Assembly (NCBI GenBank): GCA_016195095.1
Contig: JACQAE010000029.1
Coordinates: 1 to 36,159 of the forward strand
Reading direction: 5' to 3'
Source: Pseudomonadota bacterium
GTDB lineage: Bacteria; Pseudomonadota; Alphaproteobacteria; Rhizobiales; Xanthobacteraceae
Length of the DNA: 36,159 nt
Translations under genes and position numbers: made by a program
Shown: positions 4,795 through 25,708 of the stretch, piece by piece
Layout: each line of letters starts with the position of its first letter
Position numbering within the stretch: the stretch's first letter is position 1
The notes under the pieces: generated by a model
What the model was told of the DNA's origin: nothing
The model's input: the letters and a program-made list of their open reading frames with translations, nothing else
Databases searched by the model: none

Positions 4795-4892
4795 GGGGAG
4801 GTTGGCAGTGGACGAGCCACTCGCCAACCGGGTCAGGTCCGGAAGGAAGCAGCCCCAACGAGCTTCGGTTCGGGTCGCTCGTCAGCCTCCCA
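4795..4892 (+). ncRNA. ffs: Bacterial small SRP RNA (4.5S)
   Basis: Contains the near-invariant domain IV core GTCAGGTCCGGAAGGAAGCA at 4832-4851, where Ffh binds and which docks with FtsY. Outer strands pair: GGGAGG at 4796-4801 with CCTCCC at 4886-4891, giving the hairpin of about 97 nt expected for a small SRP RNA. It lies 160 bp before dnaX, a common alphaproteobacterial position. Its partner FtsY is encoded at 28420-29370. Ends are approximate (a few nt). Confidence 0.95.
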
Positions 4893-4929
4893 CTTTGCGG
4901 CCATCGGCTGGCGGGTATTTCGGCGGAAT

Positions 4930-5049: not shown

Positions 5050-6960
5050 ATGAGCGACGCCGAAAAGTCCGCGGGCGCATCCGGCGCCGCCACAGCGCCA
5101 CCGCCGGCGGCCGTGGCGGGCGATTATCGCGTGCTCGCCCGCCGCCACCGGCCGACGACCTTCGCCGATCTCATCGGCCAGGAGGCGATGGTGCGCACGA
5201 TCTCCAATGCATTCGCCTCGGGACGCATTCCGCAGGCCTGGATTCTCACCGGCGTGCGCGGCGTCGGCAACACCACGACCGCGCGCATTCTGGCGCGCGC
5301 GCTCAATTACGACCTCGCCGACGGCTCGATCACGGGCCCCACGATCGATATGCCCAAGCTCGGCATCCACTGCCAGGCGATCATCGAAAGCCGCCACGTC
5401 GATGTCCTGGAGATGGATGCCGCCTCGCATAACAGTGTCGACGCGGTGCGCCAGATCAACGACGCCATCCGCTATTCACCGGCCACGGCGCGCAGCAAGG
5501 TCTACATTCTCGACGAAGTGCACATGCTCTCCACGGCGGCGTTCAACGCGCTGCTCAAGACGCTGGAGGAGCCGCCGCCGCACGCCAAGTTCGTCTTCGC
5601 CACGACCGAGATCGGCAAGGTTCCGGTCACGGTGCGCTCGCGCTGCCAACGCTTCGATCTGCGGCGGGTGGAGAGCGAACGGCTGGTGGCGCATCTGGAA
5701 GCCATCGCCGGCAAGGAAGGCGTCGCCTGCGAGAGCGACGCGCTTGCGCTGATCGCGCGCGCGGCGGAAGGCTCGGTGCGCGACGCGCTGTCACTGCTCG
5801 ACCAGGCGATCGCCCATGCCGGCACGCTTGGCGCCGGCGTCGCGGCGGCCGGCGTGCGCGACATGCTCGGCCTCGCCGACCGCGCCCGCGTCATCGACCT
5901 CTTTGACGCGCTGATGCGCGGCGATATCGCCTGCGCGCTGGCGGAATTGCGCGACCAGTACGATAGCGGCGCCGATCCGGCGGTGGTTTTGGCCGATCTC
6001 GCGGAATTCACGCATTTCGTGACGCGGGTCAAGATCGTTCCCGCGGTCGCCGAGGACCGCTCCCTGGCCGAGGTCGAGCGCATACGCGGCCGCGCGTTCG
6101 CCGCCGCGCTGTCGATGCCGGTGCTCTCGCGCACCTGGCAGATGCTGCTCAAGGGCCTGGCCGAAGTGCAGATCTCGGCCAGGACCATTGCCGCGGCGGA
6201 AATGGTGCTGGTGCGCATCGCCTATGTCGCCGACCTGCCGACGCCCGACGACGTCGTGCGGTCGCTCTCCGGCGAAACGCCGGCTGGCGCCGCGCCGGTG
6301 TCGAACGAGCGCCATTTGCCGGCACGCCCACAATCGCCATCGCCGGCGCCGGCGCCGCAGGGCGTGCAGGCGCCGCGGGCCATGCAAGCGCCGCGCGATG
6401 CGCAGTCGCCGCCGGCCGCACGGTCGGCGCCAGCAATGCGCCCCGAGCCGCAGGTCGCCCCCGCCATGGCCGCGCGCGCGCTTTGCGACTTCGGCGATAT
6501 CGTTGCGCTGGCCATGGAAAAACGTGATCTCGTGCTCAAGGCGGCGCTTGAGCGCGACGTGCGGCTCGTGCGTTGCGAGGACGGCCGCCTCGAGATTGCG
6601 CTTGAGCCCGGCGCACCAAGGACGTTGGTCGGCGAGCTATCGCGCAAGCTCGGCGAATGGACCGGACGGCGCTGGATGGTCGTGGTTTCCGCCGAGCCCG
6701 GCGCGCCGACCTTGCGCTCGCAGGGCACGGCGCGGCGCGAGGCGCTCGAAACCGGGGTGCGGACCGACCCGTTGGTGCGCGCCGTGCTCGACCGCTTTCC
6801 CGGCGCGGAGATTATCGACGTGCGCGAGCCGCACGCGCACAATGGCGGCAATGCCAATCCGGCGCGCGCCAATGATGACGACATGCCGCAGGCGCCGCCG
6901 CGGGATGAATTCCCCGACGCCGAAATGACCGCGGATGAAACCGAATTCGACGATCCCTGA
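5050..6960 (+). CDS. dnaX: DNA polymerase III subunit gamma/tau, Walker A Lys replaced by Asn
   Basis: Clamp-loader ATPase of the replicative polymerase, 636 aa. AAA+ features in order: GVRGVGNTTTARI (68-80), Walker B VYILDEVHML, sensor region FVFATTEI, arginine-finger motif SRCQRFDLRR, lid helices, a Pro/Ala-rich linker near 430-480, and an alphaproteobacterial tau tail ending acidic. The codon at 5269-5271 is AAC (Asn74) where the P-loop normally has Lys; everything else looks intact and alpha-like. Start is the ATG at 5050 behind GGAG at 5041-5044; an upstream ATG at 4996 has no support. First gene of dnaX-ybaB-recR. No A-rich slippery site for a separate gamma product is evident. Confidence 0.93.
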   Translation: MSDAEKSAGASGAATAPPPAAVAGDYRVLARRHRPTTFADLIGQEAMVRTISNAFASGRIPQAWILTGVRGVGNTTTARILARALNYDLADGSITGPTIDMPKLGIHCQAIIESRHVDVLEMDAASHNSVDAVRQINDAIRYSPATARSKVYILDEVHMLSTAAFNALLKTLEEPPPHAKFVFATTEIGKVPVTVRSRCQRFDLRRVESERLVAHLEAIAGKEGVACESDALALIARAAEGSVRDALSLLDQAIAHAGTLGAGVAAAGVRDMLGLADRARVIDLFDALMRGDIACALAELRDQYDSGADPAVVLADLAEFTHFVTRVKIVPAVAEDRSLAEVERIRGRAFAAALSMPVLSRTWQMLLKGLAEVQISARTIAAAEMVLVRIAYVADLPTPDDVVRSLSGETPAGAAPVSNERHLPARPQSPSPAPAPQGVQAPRAMQAPRDAQSPPAARSAPAMRPEPQVAPAMAARALCDFGDIVALAMEKRDLVLKAALERDVRLVRCEDGRLEIALEPGAPRTLVGELSRKLGEWTGRRWMVVVSAEPGAPTLRSQGTARREALETGVRTDPLVRAVLDRFPGAEIIDVREPHAHNGGNANPARANDDDMPQAPPRDEFPDAEMTADETEFDDP

Positions 6961-7010: not shown

Positions 7011-7331
7011 ATGACGGATTTTCTCGGACTGATGAAGCAGGCGGGCGAGCTCAAGGCCAAGATGGAAGCCATGCAGGCGGAGCTTGATCGCATCTCCGTC
7101 GAGGGCGCCGCCGGCGGCGGCCTGGTCACCGTCACGCTCAGCGCCAAGGGTGCGATGAAAGGCGTGCGCGTCGACGCCTCGCTGCTCGCGCCCGGCGAAA
7201 AGGAGGTGCTCGAGGATCTGCTTATCGCTGCTCATGAGGAGGCGCGGCGCAAGGCCGAAGCCGCGGTGCAGGATAAGATGCAGGCGCTGACCGGCGGGCT
7301 TGCCCTGCCGCCGGGCCTCAAGTTGTTTTAA
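7011..7331 (+). CDS. YbaB/EbfC nucleoid-associated protein
   Basis: 106 aa, the normal size for this family of dimeric DNA-binding proteins. The N-terminus [20 protein letters not shown] is a helical segment, followed by the Gly-rich beta segment [18 protein letters not shown] and a C-terminal helix ending LPPGLKLF. It lies 50 bp after dnaX and 47 bp before recR, the classical order. Family members bind DNA broadly; the recurrent linkage with recR suggests a role with recombination repair, though this is not established. Confidence 0.93.
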
Positions 7332-7378: not shown

Positions 7379-7984
7379 ATGTCGACCGCCATCGCCGGAC
7401 CCGAAATCGAGCGTCTCATCCAGTTGCTGGCGCGGCTGCCGGGCCTCGGCCCGCGCTCGGCGCGGCGCGCGGCGCTGCATCTCATCAAGAGGCGCGAGCA
7501 ATTGCTGGTGCCGCTGGCGAGCGCGATGCAAACGGCGATCGAGAAGATCACCGTGTGCCGCACCTGCGGCAATATCGATACACAAAATCCGTGCACGATC
7601 TGCGCCGACCCGCGCCGCGACCCTTCGGTCATCGTCGTCGTCGCCGATGTCGGCGACCTGTGGGCGCTGGAGCGCGCGCGCGTTATCAATGCGCGCTATC
7701 ACGTGCTGGGCGGAACGCTTTCGCCGCTCGACGGCGTCGGCCCGCAAGACCTCGCGATCGAGGCGCTGGTGACGCGCGCGCATGCGAGCGACGTCGGCGA
7801 GGTCATCATCGCGCTCAACGCCACCGTGGACGGTCAGACCACGGCCTATTACATCACCGACCTCATCGCCGATGCCGGCGTCAAGGTCACGCGGCTCGCG
7901 CATGGCGTGCCGGTCGGTGGCGAGCTTGATTATCTCGACGAAGGGACGCTGTCGGCGGCGATCCGTCAGCGCACGCCGTTCTAG
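7379..7984 (+). CDS. recR: Recombination mediator RecR
   Basis: 201 aa, full length. Works with RecF/RecO to load RecA on SSB-coated gaps. Visible are the N-terminal helix-hairpin-helix ([17 protein letters not shown]), the zinc finger with Cys60, Cys63, Cys72 and Cys75 (CRTCGN...CTIC), the Toprim segment [14 protein letters not shown], and the C-terminal [17 protein letters not shown]. Its TAG stop at 7982-7984 lies in the CTAG that opens the palindromic repeat array directly downstream. Last gene of dnaX-ybaB-recR. Confidence 0.97.
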
Positions 7985-20651: not shown

Positions 20652-21615
20652 TCAGCGCGCGAGCCGCGCCAACTCGGAAATAATCGCGTCGCCCATCTCG
20701 CGCGTGCCGCCGTTGGTGGTGCCCGGCGCGCCCTTGCCGGCGATGTCGGGCGCGGAGCCGTGCACCGGCTCGTAGAGCGCCTTGCGCTTGCGCGTGCGCG
20801 CGTCGACCTCCCCGAGCGAGGCCGATGGCAGCATCCCGAGCGAGCCAGTCAGCATGGCGGCCACGTCGGAGAGCATGTCGCCGAACAGATTGTCGGTGAC
20901 GATGACGTCGAATTGCCGCGGCCAGCGCACGAGCTGCATGCCGCCGGCGTCGGCCAGCATGTGCTCAAGCTCGACATCCTTGTACTCGCGGCGGTGCAGA
21001 TTGGTGACGACCTCGTTCCACAGCACGCCGGTCTTCATCACGTTGCGCTTTTCCATCGACGTCACCTTGTTGCGCCGCGTGCGCGCAAGCTCGAAGGCGA
21101 CGCGCGAAATGCGCTCGATCTCGTAGGTGTCGTAGACCTGGGTGTCGACGGCGCGCTTCTGCCCGTTGCCGAGATCGGTGATGGTCTTGGGCTCGCCGAA
21201 ATAAACCCCGCCGGTCAATTCGCGCAAAATCATGATATCGAGCCCGTCGACCACTTCGGGCTTGAGGCTCGAGGATCCGGCCAGCGCTGGATAGCAGATC
21301 GCCGGGCGCAAATTGGCGAACAGCGCCAGATCCTTGCGCAGACGCAGCAGCCCCGCCTCCGGGCGCGCCTCATAGGCGACCTTGTCCCATCGCGGGCCGC
21401 CGACCGCGCCAAAGATCACCGCGTCGGCGCGCTGCGCCCGCTGCATGGCGTCCTCGGTGATGGCAACGCCATGCGCGTCGTAGCAGCAGCCGCCGACCAG
21501 CCCCGAAGTCGCCCATGGCGTTCTTGTTCATCCAGCCGATCAGTTTCTTGACCTCGGCCATGACTTCGGGACCGATGCCGTCGCCGGGGAGCAGCAGGAG
21601 ATTCATGGTGGTCAT
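20652..21615 (-). pseudogene. leuB: 3-isopropylmalate dehydrogenase, degraded
   Basis: LeuB oxidatively decarboxylates 3-isopropylmalate with NAD. The start at 21615 gives a normal N-terminus (NLLLLPGDGIGPEVMAEVKK to NAMGDF). At about 21501-21507 the frame breaks, and the family continues in the next frame as [20 protein letters not shown] and then normally through [31 protein letters not shown] and [11 protein letters not shown]. Comparison with the usual FETDxGLVGG suggests about 11 nt lost. After AGKG (near 20725-20735) the usual ANP-containing block of roughly 45-50 residues is missing and the sequence jumps to [11 protein letters not shown]. Two deletions argue for true decay. Confidence 0.88.
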
Positions 21616-23982: not shown

Positions 23983-24019
23983 TGATCCGGGAATGGCCGG
24001 CCGCGTCTGCGCCAGCGCC

Positions 24020-24655
24020 CTATTTCAGCGGCACATAGACCTCGATGACCAGCTTGTCCTCGGGGGTCGTGCGCAAATCCGTCATGTATTGCTCGAAAAA
24101 CAGGTCCTTGGCCTCGAGCCGTTTCTCGTCGAGGAAATTGGTAATGGCCTCGTAGGTATTGTCCATGGCGTCATAGGAACCACGGTGGACAAACTTGAGC
24201 GCCTTGCCTTGCGGCGACGTGGCGACGGCAATATCGCCGCGCGGCAGCTCCTTCGGCGGCTCCGAGATCGGCACCGCGGCCTGAAAATGGAACCCGCTAT
24301 CATCCGTCGAAAGATAGATCGTCATTGCCGGGCCGTCCGCCTTGAGCCCTTGCCGGTCGATGAAGCCGTAGATCGTCTTGAACGTATCGAGCAGGGTTTC
24401 GTAGGCGCTATCCCAGGTGGCGGTGCCCTTGATGCCGACGATGCTACGAGCGGTCAGCATCACCTCAAGGCCAAACGCGTCGGCGGGCGGCGCATCCGGC
24501 GCCGTCGGCGCGGCGGGCACGGTGCCAGGCGCCGCCGGGGCAGCGTTCGGTGTCGTGGGCGGCACGGTTTGCGCACGCGGCGCGCCGGCGGCAATAATCG
24601 CCAGCGCCGCGCCAATGAGCACGCCCGCGACCCCGTTTCGAAACCAAGGCATCAT
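24020..24655 (-). CDS. Exported GyrI-like (effector-binding) domain protein
   Basis: 211 aa. Signal peptide or membrane anchor ([21 protein letters not shown]), Pro/Ala/Thr-rich linker at about 31-58, then a GyrI/effector-binding fold: [60 protein letters not shown] and [11 protein letters not shown]. Stand-alone exported copies of this domain, otherwise fused to AraC/MerR regulators, bind small hydrophobic molecules. The double ATG at 24655/24652 has TTGGAG just upstream. Convergent with the NAPE-PLD-like gene (37 bp). Confidence 0.8.
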
Positions 24656-24829
24656 CGCGCTCCAAGATGCGCCGGGCCGGCTCGGCCGCGCCACCGCATG
24701 CGGCCTAATTTACCACGCCAGCGGCGGATTGGGCAGGCGGATTGTGTCGGCCGATCCGGCTCGCGCCGCTTCGCCTGGGCTGGCGCTGGCGCCCCGGTTC
24801 GCCATATAAATCTCGATGCAGGTTGGATC

Positions 24830-25708
24830 ATGAGCGCGCTCGCCAATCACCCGTTCGTCAAGATGAACGGTCTCGGCAACGAGATCGTCGTCGTCGACCT
24901 GCGTGCGCGGCCCGTTGCCATCTCCGCCGCCGAGGCGCGCGCCATCGCCCAGCCGGACGGGGTGCCATTCGACCAGTTGATGGCGCTTTATCCGCCGCGC
25001 ACGCCCGGCACCGATGGCTACATTCGCGTCTACAACAGCGATGGCTCGGAGGCCGGTGCCTGCGGCAATGGCATGCGCTGCCTCGCCGACATCGTGTTCG
25101 ACCAAACCGGCAGGGGCGCGCTGACCTTCGAGACCGCGGCCGGCCTGATCAATTGCTGGAAGGAGGCCGAGCCTTACGTATCGACGGTCGACATGGGCGC
25201 GCCGCGTTTCGGCTGGCAGGACATTCCGCTGGCGCAGGAGTTCCGCGACACGCGCGCCATCGAGTTGCAGATCGGCCCGATCGACGCGCCGGTGCTGCAT
25301 TCGCCATCGGTGGTGAGCATGGGCAATCCGCACGCCATATTCTGGGTCGCGGACGTCGATGCGCATGATCTCGCCAAACTTGGTCCGTTACTGGAATGCC
25401 ACCCGATCTTTCCCGAGCGCGCCAATATCACGCTATGCGCGGTGCGCGGCCGCGACCACATCGTCATCCGCACCTGGGAGCGCGGCGCCGGGCTCACGCG
25501 CGCCTGCGGCTCGGCGGCCTGCGCGGCGGCGGTCGCGGCGGCGCGGCTGCGGCGCACGCAACGCAAGCTCACGGTCACGACGCCCGGCGGCGACCTGCGC
25601 ATCGACTGGCGCGAGCGCGACGATCATGTCCTCATGACCGGGCCGGTCGCTTATGAATTCGCCGCCCGCTTTGAGCCGGCGCTGTTCGCTTCGGCCGCGA
25701 CCACCTGA
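24830..25708 (+). CDS. dapF: Diaminopimelate epimerase
   Basis: 292 aa, full length. Interconverts LL- and meso-DAP for lysine and peptidoglycan with a two-cysteine acid/base pair: Cys78 in GACGNGMRC and Cys226 in [11 protein letters not shown]-terminal [15 protein letters not shown] is typical. Start is the ATG at 24830 after AGGTTGG; the frame is open a further 279 codons upstream but this has no family similarity. mtaB begins 2 bp after its stop, so the two are co-translated; the dapF-mtaB-ftsY order is common in this group. Confidence 0.96.

Follow-up and report, generated by a model that had tools for sequence, protein, structure and literature searches.

An asparagine in place of the Walker A lysine of DnaX in a draft alphaproteobacterial genome is probably a consensus error

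Does this bacterium load its sliding clamps with a DnaX that lacks the lysine of its ATP-binding loop, or has a single base of its draft genome been called wrongly? The question is raised by the dnaX gene of the window (the whole stretch of DNA that was analysed, 36,159 nucleotides long and contig 230 of the source draft), in which the codon for the Walker A lysine reads AAC, for asparagine. Loss of the Walker A lysine is expected to cripple ATP binding. If the asparagine is genuine, ATP binding should be severely impaired at the DnaX sites, and clamp loading could no longer be said to require that the DnaX subunits bind ATP. The gene, its motifs and its neighbours are located as follows.

4797-4893, + strand: small SRP RNA (RF00169), upstream of dnaX
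5050-6960, + strand: dnaX, DNA polymerase III subunit gamma/tau, 636 aa (translation, NF006585, PF12169 and PF12362)
5251-5286, + strand: P-loop GVRGVGNTTTAR, residues 68-79
5269-5271, + strand: codon 74, AAC (Asn), equivalent to E. coli K51; Lys in 49 of the 49 relatives read
5512-5517, + strand: Walker B Asp155-Glu156 (DEVH), intact
5602-5607, + strand: sensor 1 Thr185-Thr186, intact
5638-5646, + strand: SRC motif (residues 197-199) with arginine finger R198, intact
7011-7331, + strand: ybaB/ebfC, downstream of dnaX; open frame, no outlier at conserved columns
7379-7984, + strand: recR, downstream of dnaX; open frame, four outliers, none of them radical

NCBIfam model NF006585 matches the window protein over nearly its whole length with 859.1 bits (cut-off 604), and TIGR02397 matches it with 367.4 bits (cut-off 250). 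Collar domain III is present (PF12169, residues 264-406), and the C-terminal domain PF12362 is whole (residues 480-591), as the first-pass annotation had stated of the alphaproteobacterial C-terminus; its reading of the Walker B, sensor and SRC motifs as intact likewise holds for all three. The gene does not have the marks of a pseudogene: all 636 codons are open and comparison with relatives raises no frame flag. Its neighbourhood, with the SRP RNA followed by dnaX, ybaB and recR, is ordinary, and a single full-length DnaX match was found in the genome. In its Walker B, sensor 1 and SRC motifs, its collar, its PF12362 domain and its setting between the SRP RNA and ybaB-recR, the window protein is thus like the DnaX of NF006585, from which it differs in the asparagine at the Walker A lysine, an arginine before the SRC motif and five further deviations at family-conserved residues.

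The translation of the open reading frame around residue 74 reads ...LTGVRGVGNTTTARILARAL..., with asparagine at 74, and DnaX as sequenced in the draft does not conform to the Walker A pattern GxxGxGK[ST] with its lysine. HMMER alignment with E. coli tau/gamma runs at an offset of 23 and places N74 opposite K51, which confirms the initial report of an asparagine at the Walker A lysine. Excerpts of two papers bear on the position: K51 of E. coli is named there as the Walker A lysine (PMC6997377), the Walker A motif is described as sitting at the ATP phosphates (PMC6997377, PMC8121543), and in deep mutagenesis of the T4 clamp loader the residues most sensitive to mutation are said to surround the ATP sites and to include two glycines of the P-loop (PMC8121543). 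Alignment with relatives, the check proposed at first pass, left no room for a misreading of the alignment, since the P-loop flanks match. DnaX was matched in 148 of 149 genomes of the family (the source genome included), and the codon was read in the 49 relatives with the best matches. Lysine occupies the position in all 29 same-family relatives of a first set (22 with AAG, seven with AAA) and in 49 of 49 in the enlarged same-family set, which includes those 29; the AAC of the window is one base away from either lysine codon. Among the relatives drawn there was no genome of the same genus besides the source itself.

Asparagine at this position appears to be rare. When 84,980 species genomes were scanned for a DnaX P-loop of the asparagine type (contigs of at least 3,000 bases, arginine sought as CGN, records of the source genome possibly left out), five stretches were returned, four of them falling in frames that are short or unrelated. 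The fifth belongs to the DnaX of a Nitrospira sp. MAG (isolate S0bin1_add, JACOEF010000341.1, positions 693-727 of locus L032), where the loop reads GTRGVGNTT with the asparagine encoded by AAT; like the window gene, it has asparagine at the Walker A lysine, one base from a lysine codon. DnaX could be read in 26 of the 30 relatives of this MAG that were searched, with lysine in all 26, and a stretch of 241 residues of the MAG protein is 97-98% identical to its nearest relatives. Within the MAG itself there is one match to DnaX, plus a second that is weak. In titles and opening abstracts of the open-licence literature, no report was found of a DnaX that naturally lacks the Walker A lysine.

We consider it likely that N74 results from one wrong base in the consensus of a fragmented draft, and that the DnaX of the organism carries the normal Walker A lysine. 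With the lysine present, DnaX is a standard tau/gamma ATPase; in the living cell the protein would then act as an ordinary tau/gamma ATPase, binding ATP through the P-loop lysine and driving clamp loading. This reading is favoured by the lysine in all relatives read, the single-base distance of the codon, the lack of a second dnaX and the broken state of dnaN, holA, rpoB, leuB and glnD; counting against it, the lesions elsewhere in the draft consist of deletions and frame changes rather than of altered bases. The first-pass annotation had offered three options, namely a wrong base, tolerance of the change by the organism, or compensation. The choice was a fair one, and a wrong base is the option best supported. 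Simple compensation is disfavoured by the failure to find a second dnaX: in the genome, 96% complete, the only other, weak match is delta', and a second dnaX as the compensating factor was rejected on that ground. Tolerance has one line of support, the excess of outliers in DnaX discussed below, and that excess is read from a draft in which dnaN, holA, leuB and rpoB are damaged.

The source draft, probably derived from a metagenome, comprises 3.81 Mb in 307 contigs, with an estimated completeness of 96.19% and contamination of 1.06%. Twelve of its genes were examined, and four carry internal lesions, one is truncated and seven are sound; the choice was partly deliberate, leuB having attracted notice by its apparent shortness, function having decided for dnaN, dnaE and holA, and rpoB and gyrA serving as universal controls. 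One of the damaged genes lies on the same contig as dnaX.

20652-21615, - strand: leuB, broken; frame changed close to the N-terminus (about 21503-21505), 46-residue gap close to the C-terminus

None of the 29 relatives in which leuB was read is flagged (in the thirtieth, G011, the gene is split over contigs and was not read). The dnaN gene of the draft (L178; G000 C227, 4593-5619, - strand) switches frame, about 29 codons having been lost between the two frames, and 0 of 30 relatives are flagged for this gene. Similarly, holA (G000 C208, 2630-3498) is split between two overlapping frames, and each of the 30 relatives has one holA match above the cut-off. From rpoB (G000 C297, 9069-12968), profile positions 714-760 (47 positions) are missing in frame; 22 of the 30 relatives have one nearly full-length rpoB match, five have it in pieces or truncated (including G047, with a frame change) and three gave no match. 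Roughly the first quarter of dnaE is absent, at an apparent contig edge. The genes found unbroken where tested are dnaX, recR, ybaB, asd, dnaA, holB and gyrA, with dnaA and holB judged over a trimmed reference and recR from its profile match and family comparison. The dnaA gene sits on the same contig as the broken dnaN and is unbroken over the part compared. A second match to the gyrA model, which we take to be parC-like (G000 C213, 4829-6853, - strand), was reported with one internal TAG.

A cell without dnaN, holA or an intact rpoB is, to our knowledge, not viable, and no second copies of dnaN or rpoB were found in the genome. As loss of dnaN, holA or the rpoB block should be lethal and no spare copies were found, the lesions are most simply explained as faults of the draft, and those in dnaN, holA and rpoB are probably artefacts. 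Apart from their breaks, dnaN and leuB are clean, with no radical outlier in 118 and 116 conserved columns, respectively, which is unlike slow pseudogene decay. According to an excerpt of Cooley and Wright (PMC11017572), many pseudogenes of such kind are assembly errors, and the spurious ones track overall assembly error. That other indispensable genes are broken in the draft makes it more likely that the AAC is a sequencing or assembly mistake than biology; a draft with such lesions would be expected to hold point errors as well, one of which may be at codon 74.

The integrity of genes was also assessed in a blind sample, in which open reading frames of a complete relative (G092, 800 kb of its sequence) were compared with 509 kb of the source genome (window included), another MAG (G030) serving as control. 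The first pass gave 13 matches in the source genome, 11 of them away from contig ends and four flagged (one being dnaX, for an insertion), and seven in the control, with six away from ends and two flagged. In a looser second pass, 23 of the 25 matches in the source genome covered at least 60% and two were flagged, as compared with 16 of 18 and three flags, uninspected, in the control. Upon inspection, the two second-pass flags of the source genome proved to be one frame change, in glnD (so named by its family), and one stop upstream of the likely start, which leaves one of 23 genes frame-broken. A permease of the source genome has a gap of 19 residues. By the measure of this blind sample, the draft is not exceptional.

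Beyond codon 74, DnaX deviates from its relatives at other conserved positions that had not been remarked on at first pass: an arginine directly before the SRC motif and five more. The seven outliers are K32R, Y33H, K74N, R189G, L196R, R357P and P379T, and those other than codon 74 are located as follows.

5143-5148, + strand: Arg32-His33; Lys in 48 of 49 and Tyr in 49 of 49 relatives, respectively
5614-5616, + strand: Gly189; Arg in 49 of 49 relatives, Gln in E. coli, His in Nitrospira
5635-5637, + strand: Arg196, directly before SRC; Leu in 49 of 49 relatives
6118-6120, + strand: Pro357; Arg in 49 of 49 relatives
6184-6186, + strand: Thr379; Pro in 48 of 49 relatives

These are seven outliers in 210 conserved columns, as against a mean of 1.86 and a maximum of five among the 49 relatives; when only radical outliers are counted, the window DnaX has four (K74N, Y33H and K32R fall outside this class), and the relatives average 0.37 and reach two at most. 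An earlier count against 29 relatives also gave seven, with D132A in the list and P379T not. If the threshold is relaxed to columns at least 95% alike, the window DnaX ties with one relative at eight, and in the DnaX tree its terminal branch is the longest of 50, at 0.174 versus 0.170 for the next. The divergence of this DnaX is therefore at the upper edge of the family and not beyond it; only the outliers at the most conserved columns exceed those of all relatives. At constrained amino-acid sites, comparison with its tree neighbour L011 gives 11 to 1.

Eight other genes of the genome are nearly clean by the same test, with one radical outlier in 856 conserved columns: none in recR (114 columns), leuB (116), asd (132), dnaN (118), dnaA (79), dnaE (213) or ybaB (21), and one in holB (63). 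For five of them (leuB, asd, dnaN, dnaA and dnaE) the comparison extended to other families of the order, so that their conserved columns are stricter, and part of the contrast with DnaX stems from this; the three judged within the family (recR, ybaB and holB) have one radical outlier in 198 columns. With so marked a difference between these genes and DnaX, a uniform rate of base error explains DnaX poorly, and as a complete explanation it was rejected on the conserved columns of the nine genes. Nor is every deviation a lone miscall, given that K32R is a difference of three bases. Either some constrained sites of DnaX have truly drifted in this lineage, or dnaX has collected more than its share of errors. 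Other DnaX proteins show changes at several of the outlier positions too; histidine, for example, also replaces Tyr33 in two relatives of the Nitrospira MAG. For this reason we think that most of the outliers may well be real and tolerable; K74N, alone in the catalytic core, would then be the odd one out.

The same data bear on the possibility that the asparagine is real, the DnaX of the lineage being under relaxed or altered constraint and binding ATP weakly or not at all, with loading sustained by residual binding or by delta'. DnaX is alone among the nine genes in exceeding every relative in radical outliers (four versus a maximum of two), and the three-base K32R and the 11-to-1 imbalance point the same way. 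The delta' (HolB) of the genome, whose P-loop GPPGIGKAT keeps its lysine, could in principle contribute ATP binding. Against this, the divergence is high but not extreme, as the near-equal branch lengths and the tie at eight attest; several outliers look tolerable (histidine at 33, glutamine or histidine at 189 in other DnaX proteins); and the change would strike every DnaX copy in the pentamer simultaneously. On balance, a genuine asparagine seems rather unlikely. E. coli delta' is described, in an excerpt of PMC6997377, as an AAA+ subunit of the clamp loader whose Walker A motif is degenerate, and so offers a precedent for a natural clamp-loader subunit without a working Walker A motif; it is, however, a separate subunit of the pentamer and not the DnaX ATPase, and the HolB of the present genome instead retains its P-loop lysine. 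That this bacterium, an alphaproteobacterium by its DnaX type, replicates with a DnaX devoid of the Walker A lysine and carrying further changes such as the arginine beside the arginine finger, in a clamp loader with weakened ATP binding at DnaX that perhaps leans on the P-loop of delta', is a decidedly doubtful proposition.

True decay of the genome or of its replication genes, with recent pseudogenisation and replication by genes outside the bin, could account for the damage to dnaN, holA, leuB, rpoB and glnD together with the altered dnaX; it is nevertheless very improbable, as no cell is known to survive the loss of dnaN or rpoB and a search for second copies came up empty, dnaN and leuB show no accompanying radical point changes, completeness is 96%, and dnaA, holB, asd, recR and gyrA are unbroken. 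There is an equally slim chance that the AAC stems from a minor strain, or from a chimeric consensus in which variants are mixed, the assembler having kept a rare mutant allele. Such an origin would suit a draft that is fragmented and shows its anomalies in certain genes only, but it sits poorly with a contamination estimate of 1.06% and a bin in which no duplicate or alternative dnaX was found. Mixing of the consensus driven by a repeat was rejected for codon 74: words of 13, 15, 17 and 21 bases across base 5271 have no other occurrence in 515 kb of sequence from the same genome.

The lesions in dnaN, holA, rpoB and leuB make this draft untrustworthy at the resolution of a single codon, and the case suggests that single-codon oddities in drafts call for a check of other essential genes before they are given a biological reading. 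Elsewhere in the window, an open reading frame of 571 aa (23993-25708, + strand) matches the DapF (diaminopimelate epimerase) family best at residues 440-553, with a long part of the frame lying upstream of that stretch.
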